Below are positions 13,278 to 58,452 of a stretch of DNA of 64,000 nucleotides, one piece after another (positions within the stretch are counted from its first letter, which is position 1; each line of letters starts with the position of its first letter). Under the pieces are notes generated by a model. That model was not told the origin of the DNA, searched no databases, and saw only the letters and a list, made by a program, of their open reading frames with translations. This DNA is from Cytophagales bacterium (GTDB lineage: Bacteria > Bacteroidota > Bacteroidia > Cytophagales > Thermoflexibacteraceae). Position numbers and translations under genes: made by a program. Where the stretch lies: positions 1 through 64,000 of the forward strand of contig JAAFKA010000009.1 of NCBI GenBank assembly GCA_013299115.1, given 5' to 3'.

Positions 13278-13285
13278 AAACAGAT

Positions 13286-13315: not shown

Positions 13316-13362
13316 TTTAAAGCACATTAAAAATTTCATTTTCACTTTAAACTCAAAAAATC

Positions 13363-14448: not shown

Positions 14449-14496
14449 CACTTTTTTGCTTAATTTCCCAAAATTATACAAAAAAAGTGTATAAAA

Positions 14497-14532
14497 AACA
14501 TTGGCAGGGTTTTGCAACCACTGCCAATGTTT
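14497..14532 (+). terminator. Strong hairpin after the protease gene
   Basis: AAACATTGGCAG pairs with CTGCCAATGTTT, with an inner GGTT/AACC stem. It lies about 50 bases after the stop of the protease gene. Confidence 0.6.
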
Positions 14533-14535
14533 AGT

Positions 14536-14643
14536 TTCTCACACGCTAAAGCGTATGTTACATTCTCACACGCTGAAGCGTATGTTACATTCTCACACGC
14601 TGAGGCGTATGTTACATTCTCACACGCTAAAGCGTATGTTACA
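14536..14643. repeat. Four tandem 27-bp copies of a CTAAAG palindrome
   Basis: The unit TTCTCACACGCTAAAGCG plus TATGTTACA is repeated four times (starts 14536, 14563, 14590, 14617). The copies vary at the centre (CTAAAG, CTGAAG, CTGAGG, CTAAAG). The array ends two bases before the rpoD stop codon on the opposite strand, so it lies in the rpoD 3' region. Confidence 0.92.
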
Positions 14644-14645
14644 TT

Positions 14646-15509
14646 TTAGCCCAAATAAGTTTTCAGTGCTTTGCTGCGTGAAGTGTGTCGCAAACGGCGA
14701 ATAGCTTTTTCTTTAATTTGGCGTACTCTTTCTCTTGTCAGGTTAAATCTCTCGCCAATTTCCTCCAAAGTCATGGCGTGTTCTCCGTTCAAACCGAAGT
14801 ATAACATCACCACATCAGCCTCTCTTGGTGTGAGGGTGGACAAAGCACGTTGCACTTCTTTGCGTAAAGAGTCGCTAATTAAGCCCGAGTCGGGAGTTTC
14901 TTCGCCATCATTTTCCAAGACATCGAGCAAACTGTTTTCTTCGCCCTGCACAAAAGGTGCGTCCATAGATACGTGCCTGCCCGATATTTTTAGTGTATCA
15001 ACTACTTCGCTGGTCGTAACTTCCAAAACTTCTGCCAATTCGTCAGGTGAAGGTTCACGTTCAAATTTTTGTTCGAGTTCCGAAAAAGTCTTAGAAATTT
15101 TGTTTAACGAACCCACTCTGTTCAAAGGCAGACGCACAATCCTCGACTGCTCGGCTAAAGCCTGCAAAATAGATTGGCGAATCCACCAAACAGCATAAGA
15201 AATAAACTTAAAACCTCTGGTTTCGTCGAATCGTTGGGCAGCTTTGATAAGCCCCAAGTTGCCTTCATTGATTAAATCTCCCAACGAAAGTCCCTGATTT
15301 TGATATTGCTTTGCTACGGACACCACAAAACGCAAGTTTGCTTTGGTTAGTCTTTCCAAGGCAAATTGGTCGCCATCTCTTATCCTTTTTGCAAGATCTA
15401 CTTCCTCGTCAGGGGTAAGCAAATCCACTTTTCCGATTTCTTGCAAATACTTGTCTAAGGATTGCGATTCTCTGTTGGTAATTTGCTTACTGATTTTCAG
15501 TTGTCTCAT
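14646..15509 (-). CDS. rpoD: Primary RNA polymerase sigma factor (sigma-70 family)
   Basis: The 287-residue protein directs core polymerase to housekeeping promoters. Region 1.2 starts near residue 16 ([20 protein letters not shown]), region 2 contains [16 protein letters not shown] and the DNA-melting stretch [13 protein letters not shown], region 3 follows, and region 4 ends with the helix-turn-helix [19 protein letters not shown]. Region 1.1 is absent and the length is that of the Bacteroidota primary sigma factor, which recognises TTTG / TAnnTTTG promoters such as those noted here. The ATG at 15509 fits family N termini. The gene is monocistronic, with a repeat array directly after its stop codon. 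Confidence 0.96.
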
Positions 15510-15574
15510 CTTTGTTGGGTTATTTTAAAATGTTATGCGTTTTTTACTATTCTTTTATTTTTAGAATATTTATT

Positions 15575-17077: not shown

Positions 17078-17179
17078 GCTTTGCTAATTATAAAGAGTTG
17101 TTTGTCAATAAGGTTTAATGTAACATTACCTTAACGTAAGGTAGCAAAAAAAGTTCAGGAATTGTTAAAAAATCTTGTG

Positions 17180-18109
17180 TTACCTCCCAATCTTTTCTGC
17201 CAACAAATATAAAACTGCCATTCGGACAGCTACCCCATTCTCCACTTGCTGCAAAATAATGCTATGAGCCGAGTCTGCCACATCACTGCTGAGTTCTATT
17301 CCTCTGTTTATGGGACCTGGGTGCATAATCACTATTTCCTTGTCTAATTCGTCTAACAAAGTTTTGTTGATACCAAAATACAGCGTATATTCTCTCAAAG
17401 AAGGAATGTTTTTGCCTTGCTGCCTCTCCAACTGAATACGCAATACATTGGCAACATCACACCAATTGAGGGCTTGCCTTACGTCAAACGAAACTTTGAT
17501 ACCTAAACTATCTATATATTTGGGTATCAAGGTTTTAGGTCCGCAAACCATTACTTCTGCACCCAATTTTTTGAGGGCAAAAATATTAGACAAAGCAACA
17601 CGAGAATGTGAAATATCACCAATAATTGCCACTTTGACTCCTTCTATTCTGCCCAATTTTTCTTTAATAGAGTAGGCATCGAGCAAAGCCTGTGTGGGGT
17701 GTTCGTGTGTGCCATCGCCTGCATTGACTATGGCTGCGTTGATGTGTTTGCTCAAAAAGTGAGGGGCACCAGGACTTGCGTGTCGCATCACGAGCATATC
17801 CACCTTCATTGCCAAGATATTATTGACCGTATCGAGCAAAGTTTCGCCTTTTTTAACTGAACTTTGGGCTGAAGAAAAATTGAGGGTATCTGCCGACAAC
17901 CGCCGTTCTGCCAACTCAAACGAGAGTCGGGTACGGGTAGAGTTCTCGAAAAAGACATTCGCAATGGTAATATCTCTCAACGAAGGTACTTTTTTGATAG
18001 GTCGGTTTAGCACCTCTTTAAAACGGTCTGCTGTTTCTAATATCAACTGAATATCAGTTTCTTGCAGGTCTTTAATACCTAATAAATGACGGACACTGAT
18101 AGAGTTCAC
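17180..18109 (-). CDS. pyrB: Aspartate carbamoyltransferase, catalytic subunit
   Basis: The 309-residue enzyme condenses carbamoyl phosphate with aspartate in pyrimidine synthesis. The carbamoyl-phosphate loop STRTR is at residues 57-61, the mobile-loop lysines are in SVKKGET (86-87), HPTQALLD follows the GDGTHEH segment, and the aspartate-binding region ends with MHPGPINRG. Length is typical. No regulatory subunit gene pyrI is adjacent. The ATG at 18109 begins just before the conserved LLGIKDL segment. It is divergent from pdxH, with about 125 bases between that must hold both promoters. Confidence 0.96.
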   Translation of the reverse strand: MNSISVRHLLGIKDLQETDIQLILETADRFKEVLNRPIKKVPSLRDITIANVFFENSTRTRLSFELAERRLSADTLNFSSAQSSVKKGETLLDTVNNILAMKVDMLVMRHASPGAPHFLSKHINAAIVNAGDGTHEHPTQALLDAYSIKEKLGRIEGVKVAIIGDISHSRVALSNIFALKKLGAEVMVCGPKTLIPKYIDSLGIKVSFDVRQALNWCDVANVLRIQLERQQGKNIPSLREYTLYFGINKTLLDELDKEIVIMHPGPINRGIELSSDVADSAHSIILQQVENGVAVRMAVLYLLAEKIGR

Positions 18110-36973: not shown

Positions 36974-37779
36974 TAGAGGTTATTAAGGTAAATTATGTTG
37001 CGAATTTAGTATTTCTTGAATAGTTACGTAAATTATGTAGTGCTGCTGCAATTTGTGCTACACTATCTCTGATGCTTTCGCCCTTCATTCTTATCTTTTC
37101 TCGTACAATCCTTAGCGTTTCGAAAGCCTCAATCAAGAGTTTTATCATGAACTTTCCCTTCCACCGTAGGACTAATAAAATGAATAACCCGTTTGGTATC
37201 TACAACTAACTCATTTTTACAAGTATGCATTTTTTGCTTGCCTGAATCATCAGTTTCCTGGTTGTCCTTGTCTGTTTGTCTTGGTATAGGTCTTTCTACG
37301 GCCTCATGGAGAACAATTTTTTCTTCTTCGGCTACTTTGAGCAACCTTGAATAAAGTTCCTCAGCAGTGGTGGCAGGCATACAATCAACTTTTTTCAGGC
37401 TTTTATGCAACAAGGGCAACAAGACCTTAAGCCATTGGCTTACTTTACTTTGCGAGAGTGTAAACATAGTCCCAATAACCTCTTGCAACGTATTGGTTTT
37501 CAGATACACCAGAATAAAAAATAATTTGGCAGTACTGCCGTAGAGGATACTATTTTTAGCTTCATTAAATTTTTGGAATTTACGTGGATTACCAAAAGCA
37601 TCATGGTATGCAAAGTATTTTTCACAAATGGGGGAGAAAGCACGCAATAAATCGTCAAACTCACTGGGTTTAAGGCTGGTTAAGGCTAAAAAACGAGTTG
37701 AGTTTTGGTAAATAGTTTCAAAAGATTGCATAAAACGAAAAATTTTGCTAAGTTAGTAAAATTATTTTAATAACCTCTA
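36974..37779. mobile_element. Internally deleted IS5-type element
   Basis: An 806-bp element is bounded by TAGAGGTTATTAA (36974-36986) and TTAATAACCTCTA (37767-37779), perfect 13-bp inverted ends; the symmetry extends a few bases outward (AAATAGAGG / CCTCTATTT). It encodes N- and C-terminal parts of one transposase with the central catalytic part missing. It is therefore non-autonomous, but it shares termini with the small elements at 3447, 18890 and 63216. Confidence 0.8.
36993..37731 (-). pseudogene. IS5-family DDE transposase, internal deletion
   Basis: The 200-codon N-terminal part (37129-37731) has the helical DNA-binding region ending in LSQSKVSQWLKVLLPLLHKSL, then HEAVERPIPRQTDKDNQ, the HTCKNELVVDTKRVIHFISPTVEGKVHDKTLD stretch that normally contains the first two catalytic acidic residues, and an immediate stop. 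In an adjacent frame downstream, codons for EAFETLRIVREKIRMKGESI and SVAQIAAALHNLRN follow to a stop at 36993. That is the usual C terminus of these transposases. About 60-100 residues in between, including the last acidic residue, are deleted. The first acidic position also reads Glu in place of Asp. The enzyme cannot be active. Confidence 0.78.
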
Positions 37780-38144: not shown

Positions 38145-38176
38145 CTTGTCATTTTCGTAAAGTTCTTTTATATTTG
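38145..38176 (+). promoter_or_regulatory. Bacteroidota-type promoter for the first kinase-phosphatase gene
   Basis: CTTG at 38145-38148, a 20-base spacer and TATATTTG at 38169-38176 match the consensus fully. The ATG at 38207 lies about 25 bases after the predicted start. An in-frame start at 38141 would put the promoter inside the gene, which argues for 38207. Confidence 0.65.
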
Positions 38177-38206: not shown

Positions 38207-41200
38207 ATGCTCACTTTTCAAGACATAGACCTTTTAGCCGAACTCTATCAGAGTGAAGACAGCATTGTCTTCAAAGGCTACGAGAAAACCAACAAGCAAA
38301 ACGTAATTGTCAAGGTGCTGAAAGAGGATTTTCCCTCGATGAATTTGGTTGCCCAATTCAATGGCGAATATGACATCACCAACAAGCACGACTTGCAAGG
38401 CATACGCCGAGTGTTGAACAAACGAAAGGTGCAGAACAAGCACGTATTGGTGCTGGAATACATAGACGGCGTAACCATTCAGGAACACATAGCCAATCAG
38501 GTGCTTGATGTGGCGGCTTTCCTCAAATTGGCTATTCGATTTGCCGAAGTGTTGGCAGAAATTCACCAAGCTGGTATTATTCACAAAGATATTAACCCAA
38601 AAAATGTAATTGTTACGACTGATAACAAAATCAAAATTATTGATTTTGGTGTGGCAACTTCGGTCAAACGTGAACTGCAACCACAATCTAATTTGTATAT
38701 TCTGGAAGGAACTTTGGCGTATATGTCGCCAGAACAAACAGGACGTATGAACAGGTCGGTGGATTATCGCAGTGATTTGTATTCGTTGGGCGTAACTTTT
38801 TATGAAATGCTAACGGGGCAGTTGCCTTTTGTGTCTGATGATGCAATGGAATTGGTGCATTGCCATATAGCCAAATATGCCCGACCAATTCACGAAATTC
38901 GCAAAGATATACCCAAAGCCTTGTCTGATGTGGTGGCAAAGCTGATGGAAAAAAATGCAGAAAATCGTTATCAATCGGCTTATGGTTTGCAAATGGATTT
39001 GGCTGCTTGCCTCAAACAGTGGCAAACTAAACGGACAATTAGCTTAGAAAAATTGGCTACGCAAGATGTATTCAACATCTTTCACATTCCTGAAAAACTC
39101 TACGGCAGACAAACTGAAATCAATAAGTTGTTAGAAGTTTTTGGTAGAACCACCAGAGGAAGCAAAGAAATGGTCTTAGTGGCGGGCAGGTCAGGTATTG
39201 GCAAAACGTCTTTGGTCAATGAAATTCACAAGCCAATGACTACCAACAACGCCTATTTTATCAAAGGAAAGTTTGAGCAGTTTCAACGTGATTTGCCTTA
39301 CAGTGCTGTGATACAGGCTTTTAACGACTTGGCATCGCAAATTTTGGCAGAACCCATAGAAAAATTAAGTGTGTGGAAAGACGAAATTTTGGCTTCCGTA
39401 GGCGACAATGGACAAGTGCTGTTAGACGTATTGCCAAAGTTTGAGTTAATTATAGGCAAACAGCCTGCGGTATTGGATTTGCCCCCTTCCGAAAGACAAA
39501 ATAGGTTTAACAATGTCTTTCAAACTTTTATTCGAGATATTTGCAAACCAGAACACCCCATTATTTTGTTTATTGACGATTGGCAATGGGCAGATATGGC
39601 AAGTTTGAATTTGCTCAAATTGCTGATGACAGATGCCCAAAGCCATGCCTTGCTCGTCATCAGTGCATACAGGGACAATGAAGTGGAGGCTTCGCACCCC
39701 TTTAATTTGGTGGTGGAGGAAATAGAAAAACAGACAGGAGCAGTGCAACGAATTACGTTGCAACCTCTTAGGCAAGAGGTTGTCAATCAATTAGTTGCAG
39801 AAACTTTGCACACCACGCCTGATGAAGTAGAAAGTTTGGCAGACCTGATTTACAAAAAAACTAATGGTAGTCCTTTCTTTGTCAATCAATTTTTGGGTGA
39901 ACTCTACGAAAGAAATTTCCTAAACTTCGATGCCGAACAGCGTTGTTGGTTGTGGGATTTTGAGCAAATTCAAGACCTCAAAAGTACGGACAATGTGGTG
40001 GAATTGTTGGTAAACAAAATACAAAGATTGAACCCCGAAACCCAAAATGTCTTGCAATTAGGGGCTTGTATTGGCAATAATTTTCCGCTAAAAGTGCTGT
40101 CTTATATCAACAACAAAGACCAAATTACTACACTTGGTGAATTGCGAGAGGCAATAGAAGAAGGTGTAGTGTTGCCAATTCGGGGCAATATGAAAGCCGT
40201 AAGTGAGGAAACCATAGATGCCAATGTGTATTTTAAATTCTTGCACGACAACGTAGAGCAAGCAGCTTACTCTATGATAACCAACACCTTACGCCAACAA
40301 ACGCAGCTAAAAATTGGGCGAATGGTGCAAGAAAAAAGCACCGAAGCATACGTAGAAGAATTTTTGTTTGACATTACCAATTATTTTAATGCAGGTCGTT
40401 TTTTTATTTCAGACGAAACCGAAAAGCAACAAGTAGCCCAGCTAAATTTGCGGGCTGCCAAAAAAGCCAAAGCAGCAGCAGCCTATAAATCTGCCTTAAA
40501 ATATTTGGACATAGCCCACGAAATTTTGGGCGAGGAAGTTTGGGAAACAGACTACCAAACAGCCTATAATTTGCACAAAGAAAAAGGCGAAAACCATTTT
40601 TTAATTGGCGAATTTGCCAAAGCAGACGACTATTTGCAAATAGCCCTGAAAAATGCAACTACTGTTTTTGACAAGGTAAATGTATTGCAAATCAAGATGA
40701 TGCAACTTTCTGCACAAGGTTTGTTTCATGACGGTGTGCGAACTGCAATAGAAGCTATTGGTTTGTTGGGCGAGGAAATGCCAAAATTAGAAGATGCCGA
40801 AGGACTGCAAAAAGCCACAGGCGATGTAATTGGGGCTGTTTTTCAAGCTATGGAGGGCAGAACCATAGAAAGTATTTATGAGTTGCCCGAAGTGCAAGAC
40901 CAAGCCATTCGCAAAATTTTAGAATTGTTGGTCGTAAGTTTGGATATTGTAGTGATGGGAGTTCCAGATTTGATAGCCTTGTTTTCTGGGCGGATTGTGA
41001 AGTTGGTGCTGCAACATGGCTTGACCGAAAACGTAGCTTTTGGTTTCTCTTTTTGGGGGGTGGTCATGGCTGGCGGGTTCAAAAAATATGCAGAGGCATA
41101 TAAATTTGCCGAATTAGCCTTTAAAATTGAGCAAAACAAGCTACCAAACAAAGGAATTAAAGCAAAATTGGCTGCTTTGGGTGGCTACTCCACCGCCTAC

Positions 41201-43519
41201 GCCCATCACATCAGGCGAAGTGCCGAAGTGGAAATGGAGGGTTATTATGCAGGGTTAGAAAACGGCGATATGGTGTATTGTTGCTATTGCTATGCCATTG
41301 GTCCTCGTTTTACGGTTCTTTTAGACTTGCAAGAAGCAAGCGAAGTGTGGGAAAAATCCTTAACTTTCCTCAAACCTTTGAGTTTACCTTCTTATTGGAT
41401 TGGGTCTTGTTCGGCAAGCTATGTAAAATTGCTGCAAAATCCCTTGGCAGACACTCAACCTTATACCTTTGCGATTGGTGATTTTCACGAAAAAATCATA
41501 GCCGAAAACAATTTTGCCCAAACTGCTCCACTTATTTACGCCTTGTTTAAAAGATACAAAACCCTCATTTATTTGATTTATGAGGAATATAGCTTGGCAA
41601 TGGCAGAAGTGCAGCAACGCCAACCTTTGATTGCTGCGTTGGGTGGTTTAGACCCAATTTTTAAAGTAGATTTCCATTTGGCTGCTGCCTTGTCGGTAGC
41701 TGCTCTGTATGCAACCGCAACGGAGGAAGAAAAAGCAAATTATTTGGAAATAGTAGAAGAAAGTATAGCAGAAATAGGTTTGCAGGCTGCGGTGTGCAAA
41801 ATCAACTTTGAGGCTGCACATTTGGCTGTGCAGGCAGTTAAGGCGTGGGTACAAAATCAATATAGCGAGGCAATGGATTGGTTTGATGAGGCTATGCAAG
41901 CTGCTCAACAGTATGAAATTCCGCAACACGAAGCCCTGATAACCGAAGCAGCAGCCCGTTTTTATGCAGCACGCAACAAGACAGATATTGCAAAACTCTA
42001 TTACCAAAAAGCCCACCAAGCCTACAAAATTTGGGGTGCAGAGGGCAAATGTTTGCAATTAGAAATGGCTTATCCTACGTTTATTGCCCGAAAAACCAAT
42101 AAAATGCACCAAACTCACGTGAAAACCAGCCACTTGGCTACGCAAGTACGCACCATGCACAGAGGTAGTTCTCACTTGTCGAGTTTAGATTTTAACAGCG
42201 TAATGAAAGCCACCCAAGCCATTTCGGGTGAAATTCGCACCGAGCATTTGCTTTCCAAAATGATTGACATTCTCATAGAAAATGCAGGTGCAGAACGTGG
42301 AGTTTTGATACAAGAAGACGACCACCACCACTTAGTTGTCAATGCAGAAGGACACATTGCCAGCACAGAAATTCGGTTATTGCAAGCCACACCCATAGAA
42401 AAAGCAGATTTGCCTCTTGCCATTATTCGGTATGTGGAAAGGACAAAAGAAACTTTGGTGCTTGACGAAGCCACCAAAGACCGCAGATTTTCACACGACA
42501 GTTACATTGGTGGCAAGCAAGCAAAATCTATTTATTGCTCTCCGATTGTGATACAGGGACAAGTGAAGGCAATTTTGTATTTGGAAAATAACCTTTCTAC
42601 TCATGTTTTTGACGAGCAAAACACCTTGTTGTTGAGCATTTTATCGGGGCAAATTGCAATTTCCTTAGAAAATTCTTCGCTTTACACCAATTTGGAGAAA
42701 AAAGTAGAGGAAAGAACCAAAGAACTGAACAAAAAACACGAAGAATTATCGGAGAAAAACGCAAGAATTACGGACAGTGTGCGATATGCCTTGAATATTC
42801 AAGCTGCTATTCTGCCTTTGGAAAGTGAAATGAGCAGGTTATTTCCTCAACATTTTGTAGTTTACAAACCCAAAGATATTGTATCAGGAGATTTTTATTG
42901 GGCAACAGAAGTAGATAATTTGCGTTTTTTGGCAGTCTTAGACTGCACAGGGCATGGCGTACCAGGGGCATTTATGAGTATGTTGGGCAACTCTTTGCTC
43001 AATCAAATTGTCAATCAGGCAAACACCATTCCACCCGCCACTATCTTAATGCAACTCCACGAGGGCATTACCAACTTGCTCAAACAAGAGGAAACGGAAA
43101 ACAAAGATGGTATGGACGTATGTTTGTGCAGTTTTGAAACTTTGGAAGACCAAACCACTAAAATCACTTTTGCAGGTGCAAAAAGACCTTTGTACTATGC
43201 CATAAACGGAGAATTGCAAGAAGTTCAGGGCAACCGTTATTCTATTGGTGGCATTTTGCGAAACATAGAAAGGCAGTACAAAGACAACGTATTAATTTTG
43301 CCTCCTCGCAGTATGGTCTATCTCTGCACAGATGGGCTAACAGACCAAGCAAATGCCAAACGAGATAGGTTCAGTATGTTGCGGTTGCGTACTTTCATCT
43401 CTCAAAACTGTACCTTAGATGTGCAACAACAGAAAGAAGTGCTGCTCTCCGACTGGGACTACTTCCGCCAAAACACCGAACAACGCGACGATGTTACGTT
43501 GATTGGGGTAATGCTGTAG
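38207..43519 (+). CDS. Ser/Thr kinase - STAND ATPase - GAF - SpoIIE phosphatase, copy 1
   Basis: The 1770-residue protein begins with a protein kinase domain (1-275) with Lys36, HKDINPKN (126-133), DFG at 146-148 and an APE-like MSPEQ. Next is a STAND/AAA_16-type ATPase (about 310-600) with Walker A GRSGIGKT at 327-334 and Walker B ILFIDDW near 456. A long helical, TPR-like region (about 620-1310), a GAF domain (about 1343-1498), a coiled coil and a C-terminal SpoIIE/PP2C phosphatase (about 1540-1770, SGDFYW, DCTGHGVPGAF, CTDGLTDQ, RDDVTL) follow. All catalytic motifs are present. It probably senses a signal through the helical/GAF parts and sets phosphorylation of a partner in either direction. 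No signal peptide, so cytoplasmic. Start chosen by match to the second copy and promoter position. Confidence 0.92.
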   Translation: MLTFQDIDLLAELYQSEDSIVFKGYEKTNKQNVIVKVLKEDFPSMNLVAQFNGEYDITNKHDLQGIRRVLNKRKVQNKHVLVLEYIDGVTIQEHIANQVLDVAAFLKLAIRFAEVLAEIHQAGIIHKDINPKNVIVTTDNKIKIIDFGVATSVKRELQPQSNLYILEGTLAYMSPEQTGRMNRSVDYRSDLYSLGVTFYEMLTGQLPFVSDDAMELVHCHIAKYARPIHEIRKDIPKALSDVVAKLMEKNAENRYQSAYGLQMDLAACLKQWQTKRTISLEKLATQDVFNIFHIPEKLYGRQTEINKLLEVFGRTTRGSKEMVLVAGRSGIGKTSLVNEIHKPMTTNNAYFIKGKFEQFQRDLPYSAVIQAFNDLASQILAEPIEKLSVWKDEILASVGDNGQVLLDVLPKFELIIGKQPAVLDLPPSERQNRFNNVFQTFIRDICKPEHPIILFIDDWQWADMASLNLLKLLMTDAQSHALLVISAYRDNEVEASHPFNLVVEEIEKQTGAVQRITLQPLRQEVVNQLVAETLHTTPDEVESLADLIYKKTNGSPFFVNQFLGELYERNFLNFDAEQRCWLWDFEQIQDLKSTDNVVELLVNKIQRLNPETQNVLQLGACIGNNFPLKVLSYINNKDQITTLGELREAIEEGVVLPIRGNMKAVSEETIDANVYFKFLHDNVEQAAYSMITNTLRQQTQLKIGRMVQEKSTEAYVEEFLFDITNYFNAGRFFISDETEKQQVAQLNLRAAKKAKAAAAYKSALKYLDIAHEILGEEVWETDYQTAYNLHKEKGENHFLIGEFAKADDYLQIALKNATTVFDKVNVLQIKMMQLSAQGLFHDGVRTAIEAIGLLGEEMPKLEDAEGLQKATGDVIGAVFQAMEGRTIESIYELPEVQDQAIRKILELLVVSLDIVVMGVPDLIALFSGRIVKLVLQHGLTENVAFGFSFWGVVMAGGFKKYAEAYKFAELAFKIEQNKLPNKGIKAKLAALGGYSTAYAHHIRRSAEVEMEGYYAGLENGDMVYCCYCYAIGPRFTVLLDLQEASEVWEKSLTFLKPLSLPSYWIGSCSASYVKLLQNPLADTQPYTFAIGDFHEKIIAENNFAQTAPLIYALFKRYKTLIYLIYEEYSLAMAEVQQRQPLIAALGGLDPIFKVDFHLAAALSVAALYATATEEEKANYLEIVEESIAEIGLQAAVCKINFEAAHLAVQAVKAWVQNQYSEAMDWFDEAMQAAQQYEIPQHEALITEAAARFYAARNKTDIAKLYYQKAHQAYKIWGAEGKCLQLEMAYPTFIARKTNKMHQTHVKTSHLATQVRTMHRGSSHLSSLDFNSVMKATQAISGEIRTEHLLSKMIDILIENAGAERGVLIQEDDHHHLVVNAEGHIASTEIRLLQATPIEKADLPLAIIRYVERTKETLVLDEATKDRRFSHDSYIGGKQAKSIYCSPIVIQGQVKAILYLENNLSTHVFDEQNTLLLSILSGQIAISLENSSLYTNLEKKVEERTKELNKKHEELSEKNARITDSVRYALNIQAAILPLESEMSRLFPQHFVVYKPKDIVSGDFYWATEVDNLRFLAVLDCTGHGVPGAFMSMLGNSLLNQIVNQANTIPPATILMQLHEGITNLLKQEETENKDGMDVCLCSFETLEDQTTKITFAGAKRPLYYAINGELQEVQGNRYSIGGILRNIERQYKDNVLILPPRSMVYLCTDGLTDQANAKRDRFSMLRLRTFISQNCTLDVQQQKEVLLSDWDYFRQNTEQRDDVTLIGVML

Positions 43520-43561
43520 AAAAAATAAAACCTTAACCATTATAGACTAACTTCATTTTCC

Positions 43562-46500
43562 ATGCTCACTTTTCAGGACATAGACCTTTTAGACGAACTT
43601 TATCAGAGTGAAGACAGCATTGTCTTCAAAGGCTACGAGAAAACCAACAAGCAAAACGTAATTGTCAAGGTGCTGAAAGAGGATTTTCCCTCTATGAATT
43701 TGGTTGCCCAATTCAATGGCGAATATGACATCACCAACAAGCACGACTTGCAAGGCATACGCCGAGTGCTGAACAAACGAAAGGTGCAGAACAAGCACGT
43801 ATTGGTGCTGGAATACATAGACGGCGTAACCATTCAGCAATACATAGCCAATCAGGTGCTTGACGTGGCGGCTTTCCTCAAATTGGCTATTCGTTTTGCC
43901 GAAGTGTTGGCAGAAATTCACCAAGCTGGGATTATTCACAAAGACATTAACCCAAAAAATGTAATTGTTACGACTGATAACAAAATCAAAATAATTGATT
44001 TTGGAGTAGCAACTTCTGTGAAACGTGAATTGCAAAGCCACTCTAACCTTTATATTTTGGAGGGAACTTTGGCGTATATGTCGCCCGAACAGACAGGACG
44101 TATGAATAGGTCTGTCGACTATCGCAGTGATTTGTATTCTTTGGGCGTAACTTTTTATGAAATGCTAACGGGGCAACTGCCTTTTGTGTCCGATGATGCA
44201 ATGGAGTTGGTGCATTGCCACATAGCAAAATACGCAAAGCCAATTCACGAAATTCGCAAAGATATACCCAAAGCCTTGTCTGATGTGGTGGCGAAGCTGA
44301 TGGAAAAAAATGCAGAAAATCGTTATCAATCGGCTTATGGTTTGCAAATGGATTTGATAAATTGCCTCAAACAGTGGCAGACCAAACGGACAATTAGTTT
44401 AGAGAAATTAGCAAGTCAAGATGTTTACAATATCTTTCACATTCCCGAAAAATTGTATGGTCGTCAGGCAGAAATAGACCAATTATTGACTATTTTTAAC
44501 CGAACAACGCAAGGCAATAAAGAAATGGTCTTGGTTTCGGGCAGGTCGGGCATTGGCAAAACGTCTTTGGTTAGTGAAATTCACAAACCAATGACCGAAA
44601 AAAATGCTTATTTTATCAAAGGTAAATTTGAGCAGTTTCAACGTGATTTGCCTTACAATGCTATTATTCAGGCTTTTAATGACTTGGCATCGCAAATTTT
44701 GGCAGAACCCATAGAAAAATTGGAGATTTGGAAAAATGAAATTTTGGCTTCCGTAGGCGACAATGGACAGGTGCTGTTAGACGTATTGCCAAAATTTGAG
44801 TTTATCATTGGCAAGCAAAATGCAGTGGTAGAATTAGCCCCTTCTGAAAGACAAAATAGGTTTAACAATGTCTTTCAAACTTTTATTCGCAATATTTGCA
44901 AACCAGAACACCCCCTAATTTTGTTTATTGACGATTGGCAATGGGCAGATATGGCAAGTTTGAATTTGCTCAAATTGCTGATGACAGATGCCCAAAGCCA
45001 CGCCTTGCTCGTCATTGGTGCTTATCGTGATAATGAGGTTGATACTTCGCACCCTTTTGCTTTAATGCTGGAAGACATCAAAAAAGTGAGAGGGACAATT
45101 CAAAACATTGTGCTTACGCCTTTGAGCAAAGAGGTTGTCAATCAATTAGTTGCAGAAACTTTGCACACCACGCCTGATGAAGTAGAAAGTTTGGCAGACC
45201 TGATTTACAAAAAAACTAATGGTAGTCCTTTCTTTGTCAATCAATTTTTGGGTGAACTCTATGAAAGAAATTTCCTAAACTTCGATGCCGAACAGCGTGG
45301 TTGGTTGTGGGATTTTGAGCAAATTCAAGACCTCAAAAGTACGGATAACGTAGTGGAATTATTGGTAAACAAAATACAAAGATTTAACCCCGAAACGCAA
45401 AATGTGCTGCAATTAGGGGCTTGTATTGGCAATAATTTTCCGCTAAAAGTTTTGTCTTATATCAATAACAAAGACCAAATAACCACCCTCAACGAACTGC
45501 GAGAGGCAATAGAAGAAGGCGTAGTGTTGCCAATTCGGGGCAATATGAAAGCCGTAAGTGAGGAAACCATAGATGCCAATGTATATTTTAAATTCTTGCA
45601 CGACAACGTAGAGCAAGCAGCTTACTCTATGATAACCAACACCTTACGCCAACAAACGCAGCTAAAAATTGGGCGAATGGTGCAAGAAAAAAGTACAGAA
45701 GCATACGTAGAAGAATTTTTGTTTGACATTACCAATTATTTTAATGCAGGTCGTTTTTTTATTTCAGACGAAACCGAAAAGCAACAAGTAGCCCAGCTAA
45801 ATTTGCGTGCTGCCAAAAAAGCCAAAGAAGCAGCAGCCTACAAATCTGCCCTCAAATACTTAGACATTGCCGAAGAAATTTTGGGTGAGGAAATCTGGCA
45901 AACCGACTATCAAACTGCCTACGCACTGCACAAAGAAAAAGGCGAAAACTATTTTTTGATTGGAGAATTTGCCAATTCGGACACCTATCTGAACATTGCC
46001 TTAGAAAAAACTACCAATATTTTCGACAAAGTAGATGTACTCAAAATCAAAATAGCACAACTATCAGGACAGGGACAATTTCAAGAAGGCACTCGAACAA
46101 CAGGCATTGCCTTGCGAATGTTGGGCAATGATTTTCCCGACCTCGACAACAAAGAGGCGGTGCAAAATGCAATAGGACAAGCAATAGGTGAGGCTTTTCA
46201 AAAGATGGAAGGCAGAACTATTGAAAGTATTTACGATTTGCCCTATGCGGAGGACTTGCGGGTGCAAAAAACCATAGAACTATTGATTATTAGTTTAGAG
46301 ATGGTTGTCATTGGTTCTCCCGATTTAGTTCCCTTGTTTGCAGGGCATACCATAAACACCATTCTCAAAAATGGCTTGACCGAATTTGCCTCTTTTGCCT
46401 TTTCTTTTTGGGGAATGGTGCTAACAGGTGGTTTCAAAAAATACCAAGAAGCCTACCAATTCAGCGAATTATCTTTCAAAATTGAGAACAACAAGTATCC

Positions 46501-48910
46501 GAACAAAGCCTTGCGTGCCAAATTGTGCCATATCAACGCCTACTTTTCTATTTTGTCAAAACATATTTCGGCAGGGGGAAAAATGAACAGAGAAGGCTAT
46601 TATCACGGATTGGAAAACGGAGATTTTATTTACTGTTCTTACGCCATTGCCGTAGAGCCTCGTTTTATCATTCCTTGCAATTTGGAGGAGGCAGCAGCAG
46701 CAGTAGAAAAAGCTATTTCTTTCTTAAAAAGTATCAATAATGAGATAGTTGTGTTGGTAATGGAAGGTTACAAAGGTTTTATAGAAACCTTGCAAGGAAA
46801 CTACGAAAACCATTTTGACTTTTCGCATGGCGACTTCAAAGAGCAAACCCTCACCGATGTTTTTGAGAAAAATGCACCTTTGCTGTATGCTATTTACAAA
46901 AGATACAGGTTGCTCAATTACCTAATTTACGAAGACTACCAATTAGGTTTGGCAGAACTCCAAACCCGATGGACTTGGATAAATATTTTGGGTGGTTTGG
47001 ATTTTGCATTGAAAGTAGATTTTCACTTAGTATCGGCTTTTGTGGTTGCCGAACTTTTTGCAAAGGCAACAGCGGAGGAAAAAGTTAAGTATTTGGAAAT
47101 AGTAGAGGAAAGCATAGCCGAAATAAGCCTGTTGGCTGCCGTTTGCGAAATCAACTTTGAGGCTGCACATTTGGCAGCAAAAGCCACCAAAGCAAGGCTG
47201 CAAAACCAACATAGCGAGGCAATGGATTTGTTTGACGAGGCTATTGCTATGGCACAAAAACACGAAATTCCTCAACACGAAGCCCTGATAACCGAAGCAG
47301 CAGCCCGTTTTTATGCAGCACGCAACAAAACAGACATAGCCAAATTGTATTACCAAAAAGCCCACCACGCCTATAAAATTTGGGGTGCAGAAGGAAAATG
47401 TATGCAATTAGAAACCGAATATCCAACCTTTGTGTTGCGAAAAGCTAACTATGTGCAGCAGACCAAAATAAAATCTACCAACACCAATACCAAAACCTTG
47501 CACGCAGGTACACAGGCAAGCATACACACAGGTACGCACATACGCACTATGCACAGAGGTGGAGGTATGTCGAGTTTGGATTTTAACAGCATTATGAAAG
47601 CCACCCAAGCCATTTCGGGTGAAATTCGCACCGAGCATTTGCTCTCCAAAATGATTGACATTCTCATAGAAAATGCAGGTGCAGAACGGGGCGTATTGAT
47701 ACAAGAGGACGACCACCGCCATTTGGTTGTCAATGCAGAAGGACACATTGCCAGCACAGAAATTCGGTTGTTGCAAGCCACACCCATAGAAAAAGCAGAT
47801 TTGCCACTTTCCATTATTCGATATGTGGAAAGAACTAAAGAAACCTTAGTGCTTGATGAGGCAATGAAAGACCGCCGTTTTGCCCAAGATACGTATATTG
47901 GTAGCAAGCAAGCAAAATCTATTTATTGCTCACCTATCACCATTCATGGCAAAGTAAAAGCTATTTTGTATCTGGAAAACAACCTATCTTCTTATGTTTT
48001 TGACGAGCAAAACACGCAAATTTTGAGTGTTTTATCAGGACAAATTGCAATTTCCTTAGAAAATTCTTCGCTTTACACCAATTTGGAGCAAAAAGTAGAG
48101 GAAAGAACCAAAGAACTGAACAAAAAACACGAGGAGTTATCAGAGAAAAACGCAAGAATTACGGACAGTGTGCGGTATGCCCTGAACATTCAGGCTGCCA
48201 TTCTGCCTTTGGAAAGTGAAATGAGCAGGTTATTTCCCCAACATTTTGTGATTTACAAGCCCAAAGACATTGTTTCGGGAGATTTTTATTGGATTGGCGA
48301 AATAGCAAATCATAAATTGTTGGCAGTCGTAGATTGCACAGGGCATGGCGTGCCTGGGGCATTTATGAGTATGTTAGGTAATTCCTTGCTCAATCAAATT
48401 GTCAATAGCAACCACATCACTTCGCCCGCCAGCATCTTGACAAACTTGCACGAAGGCATCAGCAAGGTGCTAAAACAAGAGGAAACCGAAAACAAAGACG
48501 GCATGGACGTGTGTTTGTGTAGTTTTGAAACGACAGAAAACAACCAAACCAAAGTTACTTTTGCAGGTGCAAAAAGACCAGTGTACTATATGCTCAATGG
48601 CGAATTGCAAGAAATACAAGGCAACCGTTATTCTATTGGCGGTATTTTGCGAAATACACAAAGAAATTACCAAAACAATCAAATAATTCTGCCAACAGGT
48701 AGCCTTGTCTATCTAAGCACAGATGGTTTCACAGACCAAGCCAATCAGTCCAGAGATAGGTTTAGTATGTTGCGTTTGCGGGCTTTTATTGCTCAACATG
48801 GCAAGTTGGAAATCACAAGACAAAAAGAAATCTTGCTCTCCGAGTGGGAATATTTTAGGCAAAACACCGAACAAAGAGATGATGTTACGTTGATTGGGGT
48901 GATGGTGTAG
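43562..48910 (+). CDS. Ser/Thr kinase - STAND ATPase - GAF - SpoIIE phosphatase, copy 2
   Basis: The 1782-residue paralogue lies 42 bases after copy 1 with the same domain order. Kinase, ATPase, GAF and phosphatase parts are nearly identical to copy 1, in places at DNA level (for example around 45130-45300 against 39780-39960). The helical middle (about 860-1230) has diverged strongly, and the linker before GAF has a Thr/His-rich insertion (TNTNTKTLHAGTQASIHTGT). Kinase motifs (HKDINPKN, DFG), Walker A GRSGIGKT and phosphatase motifs (DCTGHGVPGAF, STDGFTDQ, RDDVTL) are intact. The pattern suggests tandem duplication, divergence of the sensing part and continued gene conversion of the enzymatic parts. 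It is probably co-transcribed with copy 1. Confidence 0.92.
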   Translation: MLTFQDIDLLDELYQSEDSIVFKGYEKTNKQNVIVKVLKEDFPSMNLVAQFNGEYDITNKHDLQGIRRVLNKRKVQNKHVLVLEYIDGVTIQQYIANQVLDVAAFLKLAIRFAEVLAEIHQAGIIHKDINPKNVIVTTDNKIKIIDFGVATSVKRELQSHSNLYILEGTLAYMSPEQTGRMNRSVDYRSDLYSLGVTFYEMLTGQLPFVSDDAMELVHCHIAKYAKPIHEIRKDIPKALSDVVAKLMEKNAENRYQSAYGLQMDLINCLKQWQTKRTISLEKLASQDVYNIFHIPEKLYGRQAEIDQLLTIFNRTTQGNKEMVLVSGRSGIGKTSLVSEIHKPMTEKNAYFIKGKFEQFQRDLPYNAIIQAFNDLASQILAEPIEKLEIWKNEILASVGDNGQVLLDVLPKFEFIIGKQNAVVELAPSERQNRFNNVFQTFIRNICKPEHPLILFIDDWQWADMASLNLLKLLMTDAQSHALLVIGAYRDNEVDTSHPFALMLEDIKKVRGTIQNIVLTPLSKEVVNQLVAETLHTTPDEVESLADLIYKKTNGSPFFVNQFLGELYERNFLNFDAEQRGWLWDFEQIQDLKSTDNVVELLVNKIQRFNPETQNVLQLGACIGNNFPLKVLSYINNKDQITTLNELREAIEEGVVLPIRGNMKAVSEETIDANVYFKFLHDNVEQAAYSMITNTLRQQTQLKIGRMVQEKSTEAYVEEFLFDITNYFNAGRFFISDETEKQQVAQLNLRAAKKAKEAAAYKSALKYLDIAEEILGEEIWQTDYQTAYALHKEKGENYFLIGEFANSDTYLNIALEKTTNIFDKVDVLKIKIAQLSGQGQFQEGTRTTGIALRMLGNDFPDLDNKEAVQNAIGQAIGEAFQKMEGRTIESIYDLPYAEDLRVQKTIELLIISLEMVVIGSPDLVPLFAGHTINTILKNGLTEFASFAFSFWGMVLTGGFKKYQEAYQFSELSFKIENNKYPNKALRAKLCHINAYFSILSKHISAGGKMNREGYYHGLENGDFIYCSYAIAVEPRFIIPCNLEEAAAAVEKAISFLKSINNEIVVLVMEGYKGFIETLQGNYENHFDFSHGDFKEQTLTDVFEKNAPLLYAIYKRYRLLNYLIYEDYQLGLAELQTRWTWINILGGLDFALKVDFHLVSAFVVAELFAKATAEEKVKYLEIVEESIAEISLLAAVCEINFEAAHLAAKATKARLQNQHSEAMDLFDEAIAMAQKHEIPQHEALITEAAARFYAARNKTDIAKLYYQKAHHAYKIWGAEGKCMQLETEYPTFVLRKANYVQQTKIKSTNTNTKTLHAGTQASIHTGTHIRTMHRGGGMSSLDFNSIMKATQAISGEIRTEHLLSKMIDILIENAGAERGVLIQEDDHRHLVVNAEGHIASTEIRLLQATPIEKADLPLSIIRYVERTKETLVLDEAMKDRRFAQDTYIGSKQAKSIYCSPITIHGKVKAILYLENNLSSYVFDEQNTQILSVLSGQIAISLENSSLYTNLEQKVEERTKELNKKHEELSEKNARITDSVRYALNIQAAILPLESEMSRLFPQHFVIYKPKDIVSGDFYWIGEIANHKLLAVVDCTGHGVPGAFMSMLGNSLLNQIVNSNHITSPASILTNLHEGISKVLKQEETENKDGMDVCLCSFETTENNQTKVTFAGAKRPVYYMLNGELQEIQGNRYSIGGILRNTQRNYQNNQIILPTGSLVYLSTDGFTDQANQSRDRFSMLRLRAFIAQHGKLEITRQKEILLSEWEYFRQNTEQRDDVTLIGVMV

Positions 48911-54334: not shown

Positions 54335-56992
54335 CTAAATCCGTATGCCCACCACCGTAATATCGTCTGTCTGCTGCTGTTTGCCCTCTGCTATCCACTG
54401 CGAAATTGTATTGTTGAGTATTTTTTGTTGAGAACTTAAATCCATGGTTTGAACCGAAATTAGCAATTCTCGCAACTTTTTCACCATAAATTTGCGTGCC
54501 TCTTTGCCTCCAAATTGGTCTTGATAACCATCAGAAAGTAGATACAACGTAGTTTGATTGACTATATAGGGAATGGTTTGTTTGCTAAAAACATCATTGT
54601 CCGCCATAGATTTGCCACCAATAGGCATTTTATCTGCCTTTAACTCCCAAAAATCAAGAGGGTGCAAGGCTGCAAATTCCTCTGCCCTATTTGTTTGGTG
54701 TTTCACCGTATTTTTAGTTTCCAATAATCCAAGTTCTCCGTTGGCAAACACAAACATAGAGTTCATTGCCCCTGCATACTCAAAAACCTTTGCAGTTTTG
54801 TCTATCACAACCATGGCTATGTCCATACCATCTCGGTTGTTGGTAATATTTTGTTTCAGGGCATTGCAAATTCCCAAAGACAACTGGGTCAGCACAACAT
54901 CAGGGCTTATTTGTTTGTCTATGTTAATAATTTGGTTCAACACCTCGTTGCCAATCATAGACATCAAGGCACCTGGAATACCATGCCCTGTGCAGTCGGC
55001 AACTGCCATAATCAAGAGGGGATTTGCGTTTGTGTTAAAATTTGCGGGGATTTCCTGAAACCAATAAAAGTCGCCAGACACAATATCACGAGGGCGAAAG
55101 AGAATAAAGAAATTATCTTGCCCCAGCCCTTTGGCTATTTCCTCCTCCAAAGGCAACATAGCCTCCTGAATACGTTTGGCATAGGCAATAGACGCAAAAA
55201 TATCTTTGTTTTTTCGGGCAAGTTCTTCGTTTTGGGTTGCCACAATTTGCAGGGTACTTTGCATTTCCTCGTTGATTTGCTTCATTTCCCCATTTTTTTC
55301 GGCAATTTCGGTCTTTTGCAGCTCAATCTGAAAGTTTTTATCCGACAGCACCTTGTTTGCCCTTTGCGTGTTTTGCTTACTTCTATAAAATAAAATTGCC
55401 AACAACAACAGCAAAACCACCCCAACAGCCAAACCCAAGCCCACAAACTGTTGGATTTTGCTTGCCTCCTCTTGCAATAGCTGTTCTTTTTTCAGCAAAC
55501 TGATATTGGTCTGTTGAATTTCCTTGTCTTTATTCAACAACCTAATTTGCTGTTCTTTTTCAATAGCCTGTGCTGCTTGGGTCTGTTTTTCTTGTTCCAA
55601 TAACTTCAATTCTTGCGTTTTCAGGGCTTGCGTTTGGGTGAGCAACAAAATTTGTTGTTGTTTGCGGTCATTTTCTGCACTTTCTAAATCCTTGCTTTTT
55701 TGCAACAACACAATTTCTTTCTCTTTTTTCTCCATTGCATAGTCAAACTCCAATGCCTGCAATTTTTTGCTAACCGCATCACTCGAAATACTATCTTTGT
55801 AAATAACATGAATTTCACGATACTTGTAAGCCTGTTCATAATTTTTTAGTTCCAAGTAAGCAAGAGCTAACATTTCAGTACTATTTTTTATTGTAGTTTT
55901 TAATCCTATTTTTTGTGCCAACTCTAATGATTTTGTCAAATATTCAATCCCTTTTAATGGTTGTTTATATTTTACATAGTATTTGCCTAAATTAACTAAA
56001 GTAACTGCTTGCCCCTCTCTATCATTTATTTCTGTTTTTATTTTATAGGCTTCATTAAAGTATTCCAATGCTTTTATTGAGTCTCCTAAGTTATAGTAGG
56101 CATTTCCTAAATTCATCACAAGGCTTGACGCATTTTTTTTATCTCCAATTTTTAGGGCAAACTCTTGTGCCATTTTATAATTTTCAATGGCTTTGGGATA
56201 ATCTCCTAAATTAGAATAGACTACACCAAGTCCCATAAAAGCTCCTAATTTACCAAAAAAATTATTTTCATTTTGCATAGCTAAGGATTTTTGCTGCATT
56301 TCTAACTGTTTCTGATAATCCTCCGTTGCCTGATAAATGTATGCCATGCTCGAGTATGTTGATGCCTGTGCTTGTGTGTCGCCTAATTCCTCCCTAATTT
56401 TTAGGGCTTTTTGGTAAGCAATCAACGCATCTGCCGAGTTTCGTTGGGTTCTGTGCAGCAAACCCATTTGGTGATAAATATCTCCCTCCAATTTTTTGCT
56501 TTTACTTTCTTGTGCCAAAATTAAGGCTTCTTTTAAATATTTAATACTTACTTGATATTCACTTTTATCAAAAAAAATCAACCCAAGGTCATATAAACTG
56601 CTTGCAAAATCTTTTTTATTTCCTAATTTTCTTCGCAATTCTAATGCCTGCAAAGCATATTTTATGGCAGGTTCAAAATTTCGTTGTTTCCGATAGGTGT
56701 CCAACATATTTTTACAACAATTAGCCAGACCCGCAGTATATTGTATTTCCTCTGCCAATTCGTAGCCTTTTTTTGATACAAAAATTGCAGAATCATAACG
56801 CTGAGCTTTGTAGTGGAATATCCAAATTTTATTCAGAATATTTACTTTTTGGCTGTCTATTTTGGAGCTATTAAATTTTTGGTGCAAACTGTCTAAACTA
56901 CTTGTCTTTTGGGCAAGGGCAGGCAAAGCTACACAAGCAATGGATAGTAACCACAAGAAAGTACCCAAAAACCTGATGCAATAGCTTTTCAT
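54335..56992 (-). CDS. TPR repeat protein with membrane anchor and SpoIIE phosphatase domain
   Basis: The 885-residue protein has a signal peptide (residues 1-28, LPALAQ), at least seven TPR repeats (about 60-420; for example ALIAYQKALKIREELGDTQA and AIENYKMAQEFALKIGDKKN), a Gln/Glu-rich coiled coil, a membrane helix (about 515-536), a second coiled coil and a C-terminal SpoIIE-type PP2C phosphatase (about 600-885) with SGDFYW, DCTGHGIPGALMSMIG, RDGMDIAMV and LSDGYQDQF. The TPR part faces the periplasm and the phosphatase the cytoplasm, so it can carry an outside signal inward to dephosphorylate a protein, as in partner-switching systems. I used ATG 56992, where the signal peptide begins. Confidence 0.92.
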   Translation of the reverse strand: MKSYCIRFLGTFLWLLSIACVALPALAQKTSSLDSLHQKFNSSKIDSQKVNILNKIWIFHYKAQRYDSAIFVSKKGYELAEEIQYTAGLANCCKNMLDTYRKQRNFEPAIKYALQALELRRKLGNKKDFASSLYDLGLIFFDKSEYQVSIKYLKEALILAQESKSKKLEGDIYHQMGLLHRTQRNSADALIAYQKALKIREELGDTQAQASTYSSMAYIYQATEDYQKQLEMQQKSLAMQNENNFFGKLGAFMGLGVVYSNLGDYPKAIENYKMAQEFALKIGDKKNASSLVMNLGNAYYNLGDSIKALEYFNEAYKIKTEINDREGQAVTLVNLGKYYVKYKQPLKGIEYLTKSLELAQKIGLKTTIKNSTEMLALAYLELKNYEQAYKYREIHVIYKDSISSDAVSKKLQALEFDYAMEKKEKEIVLLQKSKDLESAENDRKQQQILLLTQTQALKTQELKLLEQEKQTQAAQAIEKEQQIRLLNKDKEIQQTNISLLKKEQLLQEEASKIQQFVGLGLAVGVVLLLLLAILFYRSKQNTQRANKVLSDKNFQIELQKTEIAEKNGEMKQINEEMQSTLQIVATQNEELARKNKDIFASIAYAKRIQEAMLPLEEEIAKGLGQDNFFILFRPRDIVSGDFYWFQEIPANFNTNANPLLIMAVADCTGHGIPGALMSMIGNEVLNQIINIDKQISPDVVLTQLSLGICNALKQNITNNRDGMDIAMVVIDKTAKVFEYAGAMNSMFVFANGELGLLETKNTVKHQTNRAEEFAALHPLDFWELKADKMPIGGKSMADNDVFSKQTIPYIVNQTTLYLLSDGYQDQFGGKEARKFMVKKLRELLISVQTMDLSSQQKILNNTISQWIAEGKQQQTDDITVVGIRI

Positions 56993-57100
56993 TTGCCTAT
57001 AAAATTTGTTGTAAAGATTAAAGTGGTTGTTTGGTAGTTTTTGCTTCATTGGAACAATGTAGGCATTTAATTTGTCAAATTTAGCAACTACCGAAAAATT

Positions 57101-57531: not shown

Positions 57532-58452
57532 CTATGCTTTGGGGTGGGCTTTGTCATAAACAGCTTTTAGTCTTTCCATCGTATTGTGTAGATAGACCTG
57601 TGTAGAGGCTAAGGTCGTATGTCCCAGCAACTCTTTCACTGCATTCATGTCTGCCCCTTTTTCTAAGAGGTGCGTAGCAAAGGTGTGTCGCAACACATGA
57701 GGACTTTTTCGTTCTATGGTTGTGATTTGGTTTAAAATATTGTTTACTATTCTGTAAACCAACATTTTATACCCTTGTTCTCCTTTGTCTGTTTGCACCA
57801 AATATTCCCCACTATTAAGTTGCACATATTTTTTGAGAAAGTCAAGCAAAACCTGATTTAATGGTATAATTCTTTCTTTATCTCTTTTTCCACAAACTTT
57901 AATCGTGGCATCATAAAAATTAATATCACGTTTTCTAAGTTCCAATAACTCCGAAATCCTGATTCCTGTGCCGTAGAGCATCTCAAAAACAAAAAGGCTG
58001 CGTTGCCCATCGTAGTCGTCTGAAAATGGAATTTCGTTAAACAGTTTTCGCATTTCTTTCTCACGCACAAAAAGGGGCAAAGGTTGGGCTGTTTTCAATC
58101 TTTTCAGTCTTTTGGTCGGATTGTCTGCTACCAAACTCCTACTTTCTAAAAATTTGAAATAGGCTTTCAGGGCTGCAATTTTGCGGTTGATAGAACGAGG
58201 GTGCAGGTCTTCGTCGCCCATGAGGGTAACAATCCACGCCTTGATAACGTGAGTTGGTGTTTCGTGGATTGGTATTTCTTGCAATTCCTCTTTTGTTCTT
58301 TCTGCTTTTGGCGGTTCTCCGTTGGGGTTTTGGTAGTTTGTATAGACCGCAAAAAAATCTGCAAACTGTTCTAAATCAGTCATATACGCCAAAATGGTGT
58401 GCTTGCTACTTCGTATTTCAGATTTCAGATATTTTTCGTAGACAGGCAGCAT
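57532..58452 (-). CDS. xerC: Tyrosine recombinase XerC/XerD type
   Basis: The 306-residue protein has an N-terminal SAM-like DNA-binding domain and a C-terminal catalytic domain with the full tyrosine recombinase set: Arg in YGTGIRISELLELR, Lys in GKRDKERIIPL, HVLRHTFATHLLEKGAD, the GHTTLASTQVYLH block with the nucleophilic Tyr in VYLHNT. It resolves chromosome dimers at dif and length fits XerC/XerD rather than a phage integrase. The assignment to XerC rather than XerD rests on the hpf neighbourhood and is less sure. An extra charged segment (about 45-65) in the N-terminal domain is slightly unusual. Confidence 0.9.
   Translation of the reverse strand: MLPVYEKYLKSEIRSSKHTILAYMTDLEQFADFFAVYTNYQNPNGEPPKAERTKEELQEIPIHETPTHVIKAWIVTLMGDEDLHPRSINRKIAALKAYFKFLESRSLVADNPTKRLKRLKTAQPLPLFVREKEMRKLFNEIPFSDDYDGQRSLFVFEMLYGTGIRISELLELRKRDINFYDATIKVCGKRDKERIIPLNQVLLDFLKKYVQLNSGEYLVQTDKGEQGYKMLVYRIVNNILNQITTIERKSPHVLRHTFATHLLEKGADMNAVKELLGHTTLASTQVYLHNTMERLKAVYDKAHPKA

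Follow-up and report, generated by a model that had tools for sequence, protein, structure and literature searches.

How might a single polypeptide that carries both a Ser/Thr kinase and a phosphatase be employed in bacterial signalling, and on what would its two enzymes act? The question is raised by two adjacent genes, A and B, in a 64,000-nucleotide stretch of a Cytophagales genome, referred to here as the window. An earlier note on this DNA described them as a tandem pair of kinase–STAND–GAF–SpoIIE proteins, whose single chains could add and remove phosphate under the control of one ATPase switch. The reading that we consider probable, with moderate confidence, is that A and B are STAND-gated, SiaA-like inputs to SiaB/SiaC partner switching.

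The gene pair and its architecture

Gene A (38207..43519) encodes a kinase–STAND–TPR–GAF–SpoIIE fusion of 1770 amino acids, and gene B (43562..48910) is a second copy of 1782 amino acids, 80% identical to it. Both reading frames are free of stops and lie adjacent on the + strand, as do all the features of the pair given below, and the intergenic gap of only 42 bases (43520..43561) suggests that they are probably on one transcript. The four enzymatic and sensory domains expected from the earlier description were all recovered above the curated Pfam cut-offs in both proteins: Pkinase (E 1.5e-36 in A and 1.8e-36 in B), AAA_16 (1.7e-40 and 4.1e-40), GAF (4.2e-10 and 2.9e-10) and SpoIIE (4e-19 and 1.2e-19). 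The kinase domain of A (aa 19-258, 38261..38980), with its HKDINPKN and DFG motifs, is followed by a STAND/AAA_16 NTPase (aa 297-485, 39095..39661; Walker A GRSGIGKT, Walker B IDD), a TPR-like superhelical sensor (aa about 735-1288, 40409..42070), a GAF domain (aa 1346-1487, 42242..42667), a linker that by its sequence is probably a coiled coil and that aligns with the linker of SiaA (aa 1496-1545, 42692..42841), and a SpoIIE/PP2C phosphatase of SiaA type (aa 1546-1767, 42842..43507), assigned from Pfam, NCBIfam and its alignment with 6k4e. Pfam places the corresponding domains of B at aa 19-261 (kinase, 43616..44344), aa 297-485 (STAND/AAA_16, 44450..45016), aa 1358-1499 (GAF, 47633..48058) and aa 1586-1780 (SpoIIE/PP2C, 48317..48901). 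The kinase residues K36, D128, N133 and D146 and the STAND Walker residues were all found to be present. A promoter-like site 5' of A (TTGTCA-N17-TATATT, then TG; 38146..38174) matches the consensus only, and with 23 sites of this type in the stretch, where 30.3 are expected in shuffles, it is no evidence on its own.

The helical sensor was modelled with AlphaFold2, over residues 286-1325 of A and from a 65-row alignment, at a mean pLDDT of 87.9. The predicted structure consists of the STAND ATPase and then helical repeats, comprising the STAND arm and, at model residues of about 450-1003, the TPR-like superhelix. Its structural matches include MalT (8bob; Z 18.5, rmsd 5.2, 386 residues aligned), other TPR proteins and the TPR-sensor STAND protein 6mfv (Z 15.6, rmsd 9.3, 619 residues aligned), which is also the top Foldseek match (E 1.7e-11). 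Judged by this model, the long helical sensor of A is real, and Walker A and B motifs are accompanied by a predicted MalT/Apaf-1-like fold. Thus Pfam, the residue checks and AlphaFold2 together bear out the description of two genes, each with a complete kinase, STAND ATPase, helical sensor, GAF and SpoIIE domain.

Several other genes in the surroundings were recorded. Directly upstream of the pair lies a short HTH_Tnp_4 transposase-like frame, probably a remnant (37129-37731, - strand), and 5.4 kb downstream a 904-aa TPR protein with a SpoIIE C-terminus (54335-57049, -). A tyrosine recombinase gene is found at 57532-58452 (-) of the window, and another (L055 5182-6087, -) directly adjoins a SiaC gene. 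The window's own genome holds a third open frame with the layout of A and B, 34% identical to them (G000:C10:60680-66007). A role in defence was also considered, by way of PADLOC; the families listed, 25 each for A and B (PD-T4-6 and mad6, for example), match the kinase region, with or without the beginning of the STAND domain, and nothing else, and were uninformative.

The two copies differ unevenly along their length. Identity is 92% over aa 1-500 and 52% over the sensor stretch of aa 781-1150 (40547..41656 in A). Differences at four-fold silent sites amount to 0.15 in two regions (the first part of the kinase and the C-terminal part of the STAND domain), 0.24-0.33 in the remainder of the kinase, the N-terminal STAND part, GAF and linker, 0.44 in the phosphatase and 0.42-0.63 across three sensor segments, and the longest identical DNA tract, of 133 bases, was reached in none of 1000 shuffles of the mismatch positions. 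Since silent sites should not track protein constraint in this way, partial gene conversion combined with a diverged sensor appears to be the simplest reading of the alignment. A relative of the same genus (L058) has a sensor 72-74% identical to that of A and 39-51% identical to that of B. The nearest sensor to that of B is still that of A (57%; 291 genomes, up to five candidates scored in each), and for this reason local divergence of the B sensor is likelier than import from a known relative. The pair falls well below 38 other pairs with cores at least 85% identical, in which the median sensor identity is 89.5% and the lowest 28%. As A and B have remained alike at their catalytic ends and are least alike in the sensor, they may convey two different inputs to one output.

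An impression from chosen pairs, that a diverged sensor is a hallmark of adjacent copies, was rejected: the median drop in identity from core to sensor was 28 points in 14 adjacent pairs against 29 in 1,339 other pairs with core identities of 55-99.9% (p 0.46). The L143 pair, with its identical core, lies outside this range; these adjacent copies (L143 9995-20902) share 100% identity in the kinase and N-terminal STAND part and 20-31% in the sensor.

A common core with exchangeable outputs

The known large cyanobacterial-type relatives of these proteins had been said in the earlier note to end in a histidine kinase, and a survey of genomes for the same domain order was proposed there. This survey found the architecture not to be rare. 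Long matches to the query (E<=1e-85) occur in 80 of the 291 genomes of the window's order, about two candidates having been scored per genome, and a scan of named genomes contributed the best 80 of at least 514 confirmed places. C-terminal outputs were labelled with local models made from Pfam-verified examples, 166 frames receiving a label and 10 fragments none, and removal of duplicates and partial cores left 152 non-redundant cores. That the architecture might be unique to the window's genome is ruled out by the order survey, the named-genome scan and these cores. The statement about histidine kinase ends does not hold among them: 65 end in SpoIIE, 60 in a histidine kinase, 17 in a class III cyclase and the other 10 in AAA_35 (six), GGDEF (two) or GGDEF-EAL (two). 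The SpoIIE-ended cores divide, by likeness to two exemplars, into 53 of the SiaA type found in the window and 12 of a second type, which may be RsbU-like. Phosphatase-ended forms are present in Bacteroidota, Thermodesulfobacteriota, Pseudomonadota (Gallionella and relatives of Beggiatoa) and Cyanobacteriota.

On one FastTree tree a minimum of 30 output changes is required, 19 of them between SpoIIE and another output. A single origin of the phosphatase-ended form was rejected by an AU test on 31 rows, hand-picked from the 152 cores, in which one clade of all 15 SpoIIE rows received a p-AU of 6.5e-7; a single clade of the 10 SiaA-type rows was likewise rejected. The starred branches of the IQ-TREE analysis of this set alone force seven SpoIIE changes, and clustering of the SpoIIE labels on it does not exceed that of shuffled labels (9 changes, a number as low as this occurring in 113 of 500 shuffles), with the proviso that gene conversion between neighbours, as at L133, may mimic exchange. 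At that locus, in Parabeggiatoa (L133 4006-16396), two adjacent copies with cores 91% identical end one in a histidine kinase and one in SpoIIE. The kinase–STAND–GAF core is thus widespread, its C-terminal outputs are exchangeable, and they have been swapped many times on the same core. The open-access literature that was searched yielded no publication on this architecture, which does not imply its absence from print.

These counts bear on the suggestion that kinase and phosphatase of one chain work oppositely on one substrate, with the STAND switch choosing between them. It would be consistent with the intactness of both enzymes in A and B, and with the retention of K36, D128, N133 and D146 in all 65 SpoIIE-ended cores as against 56 of 60 ending in a histidine kinase; fusions of a kinase with PP2C are, moreover, already in print, as passages on Pseudomonas (PMC1262709) and Campylobacterota (PMC9239204) attest. 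The same four residues are, however, kept almost as strictly with other outputs, namely in 16 of 17 cyclase-ended, 6 of 6 AAA_35-ended, 2 of 2 GGDEF-EAL-ended and 1 of 2 GGDEF-ended cores, and the outputs have changed repeatedly behind the same kinase. Because it is intact whatever the output, the kinase is, to judge from these residues, part of the shared core and so not a dedicated counterpart of the phosphatase, though the phosphatase-ended group is without exceptions. Furthermore, separate SiaB kinases are encoded in the window's genome and beside a phosphatase-ended fusion in Gallionella. What stands of the original proposal is that both enzymes are intact behind a STAND ATPase on one chain; their pairing as opposites is unlikely, and SiaB/SiaC switching with A and B as SiaA-like inputs is the likelier reading.

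A SiaA-type phosphatase and its candidate partners

The case for SiaA-like inputs begins with the phosphatase itself. Among solved structures, the SpoIIE half of A together with its linker best matches the PP2C domain of Pseudomonas aeruginosa SiaA (6k4e, E 1.7e-37, residues 1-268 of 271), as entry 6K4E is identified in part of PMC7647112. RssB follows weakly (3es2/3eq2, E 0.001-0.0025), and RsbU and SpoIIE are absent among the four solved-structure matches. The SpoIIE motifs of A align with SiaA, and the top NCBIfam family in both A and B is SiaA (NF038263), matched over the phosphatase part only with 197 and 208.6 bits, below the whole-protein cut-off of 700 bits. According to passages of the P. 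aeruginosa literature, SiaA removes the phosphate from T68 of SiaC and SiaB adds it (PMC7647112), and unphosphorylated SiaC activates the diguanylate cyclase SiaD (PMC8457831).

The window's genome is well provided with such partners. It encodes nine SiaC proteins, with the threonine aligned to T68 invariant in all nine, six SiaB proteins above the cut-off together with one weak match, and two full siaA-siaB-siaC rows, on contigs C45 and C10. About 89 genes bear SpoIIE, including the three fusions, a count of 88 merged places in which the window pair is one place and one place is weak (E 1.3e-4), and most of these genes were seen solely as matches to the phosphatase part of A and were not typed singly. 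The window's contig, C74, gave no match to siaB or siaC. GGDEF was not matched in this genome by a search that was positive in 8 of 14 control genomes, and the ten genes adjoining its SiaC genes show no evident common effector. One siaB-siaC pair of the genome lies near a 7TMR-DISM protein (L052 3497-6842). Two relatives, G047 and G102, have 170 and 176 first-look SpoIIE candidates. Partner-switching-like control, as the earlier note had it, is the best reading given a SiaA-type phosphatase and the SiaB and SiaC proteins of the genome. That note named no substrate; for the phosphatase the nine SiaC proteins are the obvious candidates.

Genomes of the window's order whose fusions end in a phosphatase are also richer in SiaC. 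Four or more SiaC were found in all 35 of them against 5 of 40 with other endings, and at least one in 35 of 35 against 13 of 40, counts that are loose, with up to 14 SiaC scored per genome, and that come from related and hence not independent genomes, the association following family lines. Seventy-five of the 80 genomes enter this comparison, namely those with a judged C-terminus, and G056, G136, G153, G161 and G163 are left out. Among the 35, G148 is represented by an 854-aa fragment with the kinase not in frame and G279 by a fusion split over two frames. Loci were fetched from 19 of the 40 others (20 loci), 18 being labelled by sequence and G147 unlabelled, and 21 were judged by the end of the query match. 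The median number of SpoIIE candidates, unconfirmed and from a first look, is 59 in phosphatase-ended genomes against 5 in the others, and in the three mixed families every phosphatase-ended genome exceeds every other (9 against 5-6 in f15, 31-44 against 10-20 in f18, 15 against 2-8 in f19). SiaC separates cleanly only in f15 (6 against 2, 2, 2 and 2), barely differs in f18 (5, 5 and 5 against 5 and 4), and meets exceptions in f19, where G249 and G267 have other endings with 10 and 7 SiaC. Twenty-six named loci, hand-chosen from the 80, belong to 25 genomes, of which all 5 with SiaA-type fusions (L129, L131, L150, L165 and L174) gave SiaC matches, as did 4 of the 8 whose fusions carry the second SpoIIE type and 2 of 12 with other outputs. 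One of the five is not independent, since the L150 genome shares its SiaC coordinates with G068 of the order survey and appears to be identical to it.

Gene order provides a further indication. The flanks of 150 fetched loci, which include five duplicated genes and a few fragments, were scanned with local models of SiaC, SiaB, STAS and RsbW, many flanks being only 1.5-3.5 kb long. Of the 68 loci with a phosphatase-ended frame, two gave siaB and siaC matches, and of the 82 others none did. At the first, in Gallionella (L131), the fusion (9944-15304) is followed on the same + strand by SiaB (DUF6272; 15373-15927), SiaC (15943-16329) and a class III cyclase (16322-17575), with 68 bases between fusion and SiaB, 15 between SiaB and SiaC, and an overlap of 8 bases between SiaC and cyclase. 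This row has the order of siaABCD with a different cyclase, of class III, replacing the GGDEF enzyme; a second SiaB-SiaC pair lies at L131:134-1078, and the two SiaC of L131 are those found in the Gallionella genome. The row points to SiaC as the substrate and SiaB as the opposing kinase, and it suggests class III cyclases as one SiaC-controlled output. It is unreplicated: long matches were obtained in 16 of the 399 genomes of the Gallionella order, two candidates having been scored per genome, and only that of Gallionella itself reaches the phosphatase. At the second, L174 of Desulfobacter vibrioformis, a SiaB and the one SiaC found in the genome lie upstream of the fusion on its strand, the SiaC ending 4.1 kb before it. 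Between these two genes and the fusion are a gene for a hybrid histidine kinase, one for a response regulator-GGDEF protein and a 161-aa frame outside the scan. Radical-SAM and YcaO genes lie directly 3' of this fusion (L174 15330-19449).

Classical sigma-factor partner switching, in which the phosphatase would act on STAS anti-anti-sigma proteins and RsbW-like kinases would oppose it, has also to be considered. Three STAS and two RsbW-like matches occur in short frames of the window's genome, one STAS-HATPase pair being adjacent on C17, and these stand-alone proteins could be alternative partners; the second SpoIIE type, in 12 of 65 fusions, belongs to Beggiatoa relatives and cyanobacteria, and half of their eight genomes that were searched gave no SiaC match. 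The SpoIIE domain of the window is, however, SiaA-like, no SpoIIE match lies on C17 or C25, the contigs with the two RsbW-like genes, and STAS or RsbW matches were found in the flanks of none of the 150 loci, with models from only three and two seeds. On C74 there is no STAS match, and one HATPase_c_2 match, below the cut-off, lies about 17 kb downstream in a 351-aa frame (C74:66004-66231). We regard this form of switching as improbable for A and B. Very unlikely, in our estimation, is an automatic reset, whereby the phosphatase would act mainly on the targets of its own kinase, or on the kinase itself, and SiaC would be irrelevant. Such a simple arrangement in cis would suit the conserved kinase and the lack of siaBC beside the window genes, but it leaves unexplained the Gallionella row, the SiaA-type domain and the cyclases and histidine kinases found in the same place.

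If A and B are SiaA-like inputs, a ligand or partner at the TPR superhelix would switch the STAND ATPase, as in MalT/Apaf-1-like proteins, and promote assembly. By way of GAF and linker, the signal would bring the C-terminal PP2C domains together as a pair and activate them, as linker-driven activation described in parts of the RsbU study (PMC12143880) would lead one to expect. These domains would then dephosphorylate at least one of the nine SiaC proteins at the conserved threonine, the residue that separate SiaB kinases would phosphorylate, and unphosphorylated SiaC would bind its effector. Because GGDEF was not found in the window's genome, a diguanylate cyclase is improbable as this effector. 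The N-terminal kinase probably acts on something else, be it itself, the switch or another protein; it is possible that it also phosphorylates SiaC, or that both enzymes share one substrate.

Comparison with known systems

An orphan multi-domain protein is thereby placed in a testable pathway, with nine candidate substrates, six candidate opposing kinases and a known phospho-threonine position. The same sensor-switch core is, besides, joined in nature to PP2C, histidine kinase, class III cyclase, GGDEF, EAL or AAA_35 outputs, a series useful for testing the control of unrelated enzymes by one switch, and SiaC in a genome without a GGDEF match raises the question of SiaC targets outside c-di-GMP. 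We would suggest, tentatively and at a little below an even chance, that dozens of SiaA-type phosphatases, here and in related bacteria, converge on few SiaC and SiaB proteins (nine and six in this genome), forming a many-to-few partner-switching network that acts as a main signalling system, in which no diguanylate cyclase was found and in which the kinase–STAND fusions are the meeting point with eukaryote-type kinase signalling on one chain.

The architecture of A and B is that of an HstK-type kinase–STAND core with a SiaA-type output. HstK-type dual kinases, with a Ser/Thr kinase, GAF and histidine kinase, include Alr2258 of Anabaena and the adjacent, co-transcribed and iron-responsive pair Alr0709/Alr0710, according to portions of PMC2176072. 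Histidine kinase-ended cyanobacterial proteins, compared here without the Anabaena proteins themselves, have a homologous kinase–AAA_16–helical–GAF core in the same order and also occur as adjacent copies, whereas A and B lack the C-terminal HisKA/HATPase and carry a SpoIIE phosphatase in its place. To SiaA of the P. aeruginosa SiaABCD system they are linked by a PP2C domain and preceding linker that align over nearly the full query, and by SiaB and SiaC, with its phospho-threonine position, in the genome. They differ in an input made of kinase, STAND, TPR and GAF, in siaBC that are not adjacent, in a genome without a GGDEF match and in the many SiaA-like genes set against few SiaC. With the STAND ATPases MalT and 6mfv, which have a TPR sensor, A shares the predicted fold and the Walker motifs; A and B additionally bear kinase and phosphatase domains.

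The TOMM system kinase/cyclase fusion family TIGR03903 matches two stretches of each protein (E about 4e-54), the best being the STAND part (aa 298-774 of A), yet the score is far below the curated cut-off (184 against 705.75 bits) and A and B have no cyclase domain. With the neighbours of the Desulfobacter fusion, this sub-threshold match may indicate a link of the fusions to peptide-modification clusters. Unlike the RsbU/SpoIIE sigma-factor phosphatases, A and B have no neighbouring STAS and RsbW-like genes. Finally, the RsbU study (PMC12143880) hypothesised swaps of PP2C, histidine kinase and GGDEF behind a GAF domain and coiled-coil linker. The same outputs are exchanged here, in this case naturally on one large kinase–STAND core, and class III cyclase, EAL and AAA_35 outputs are exchanged as well.
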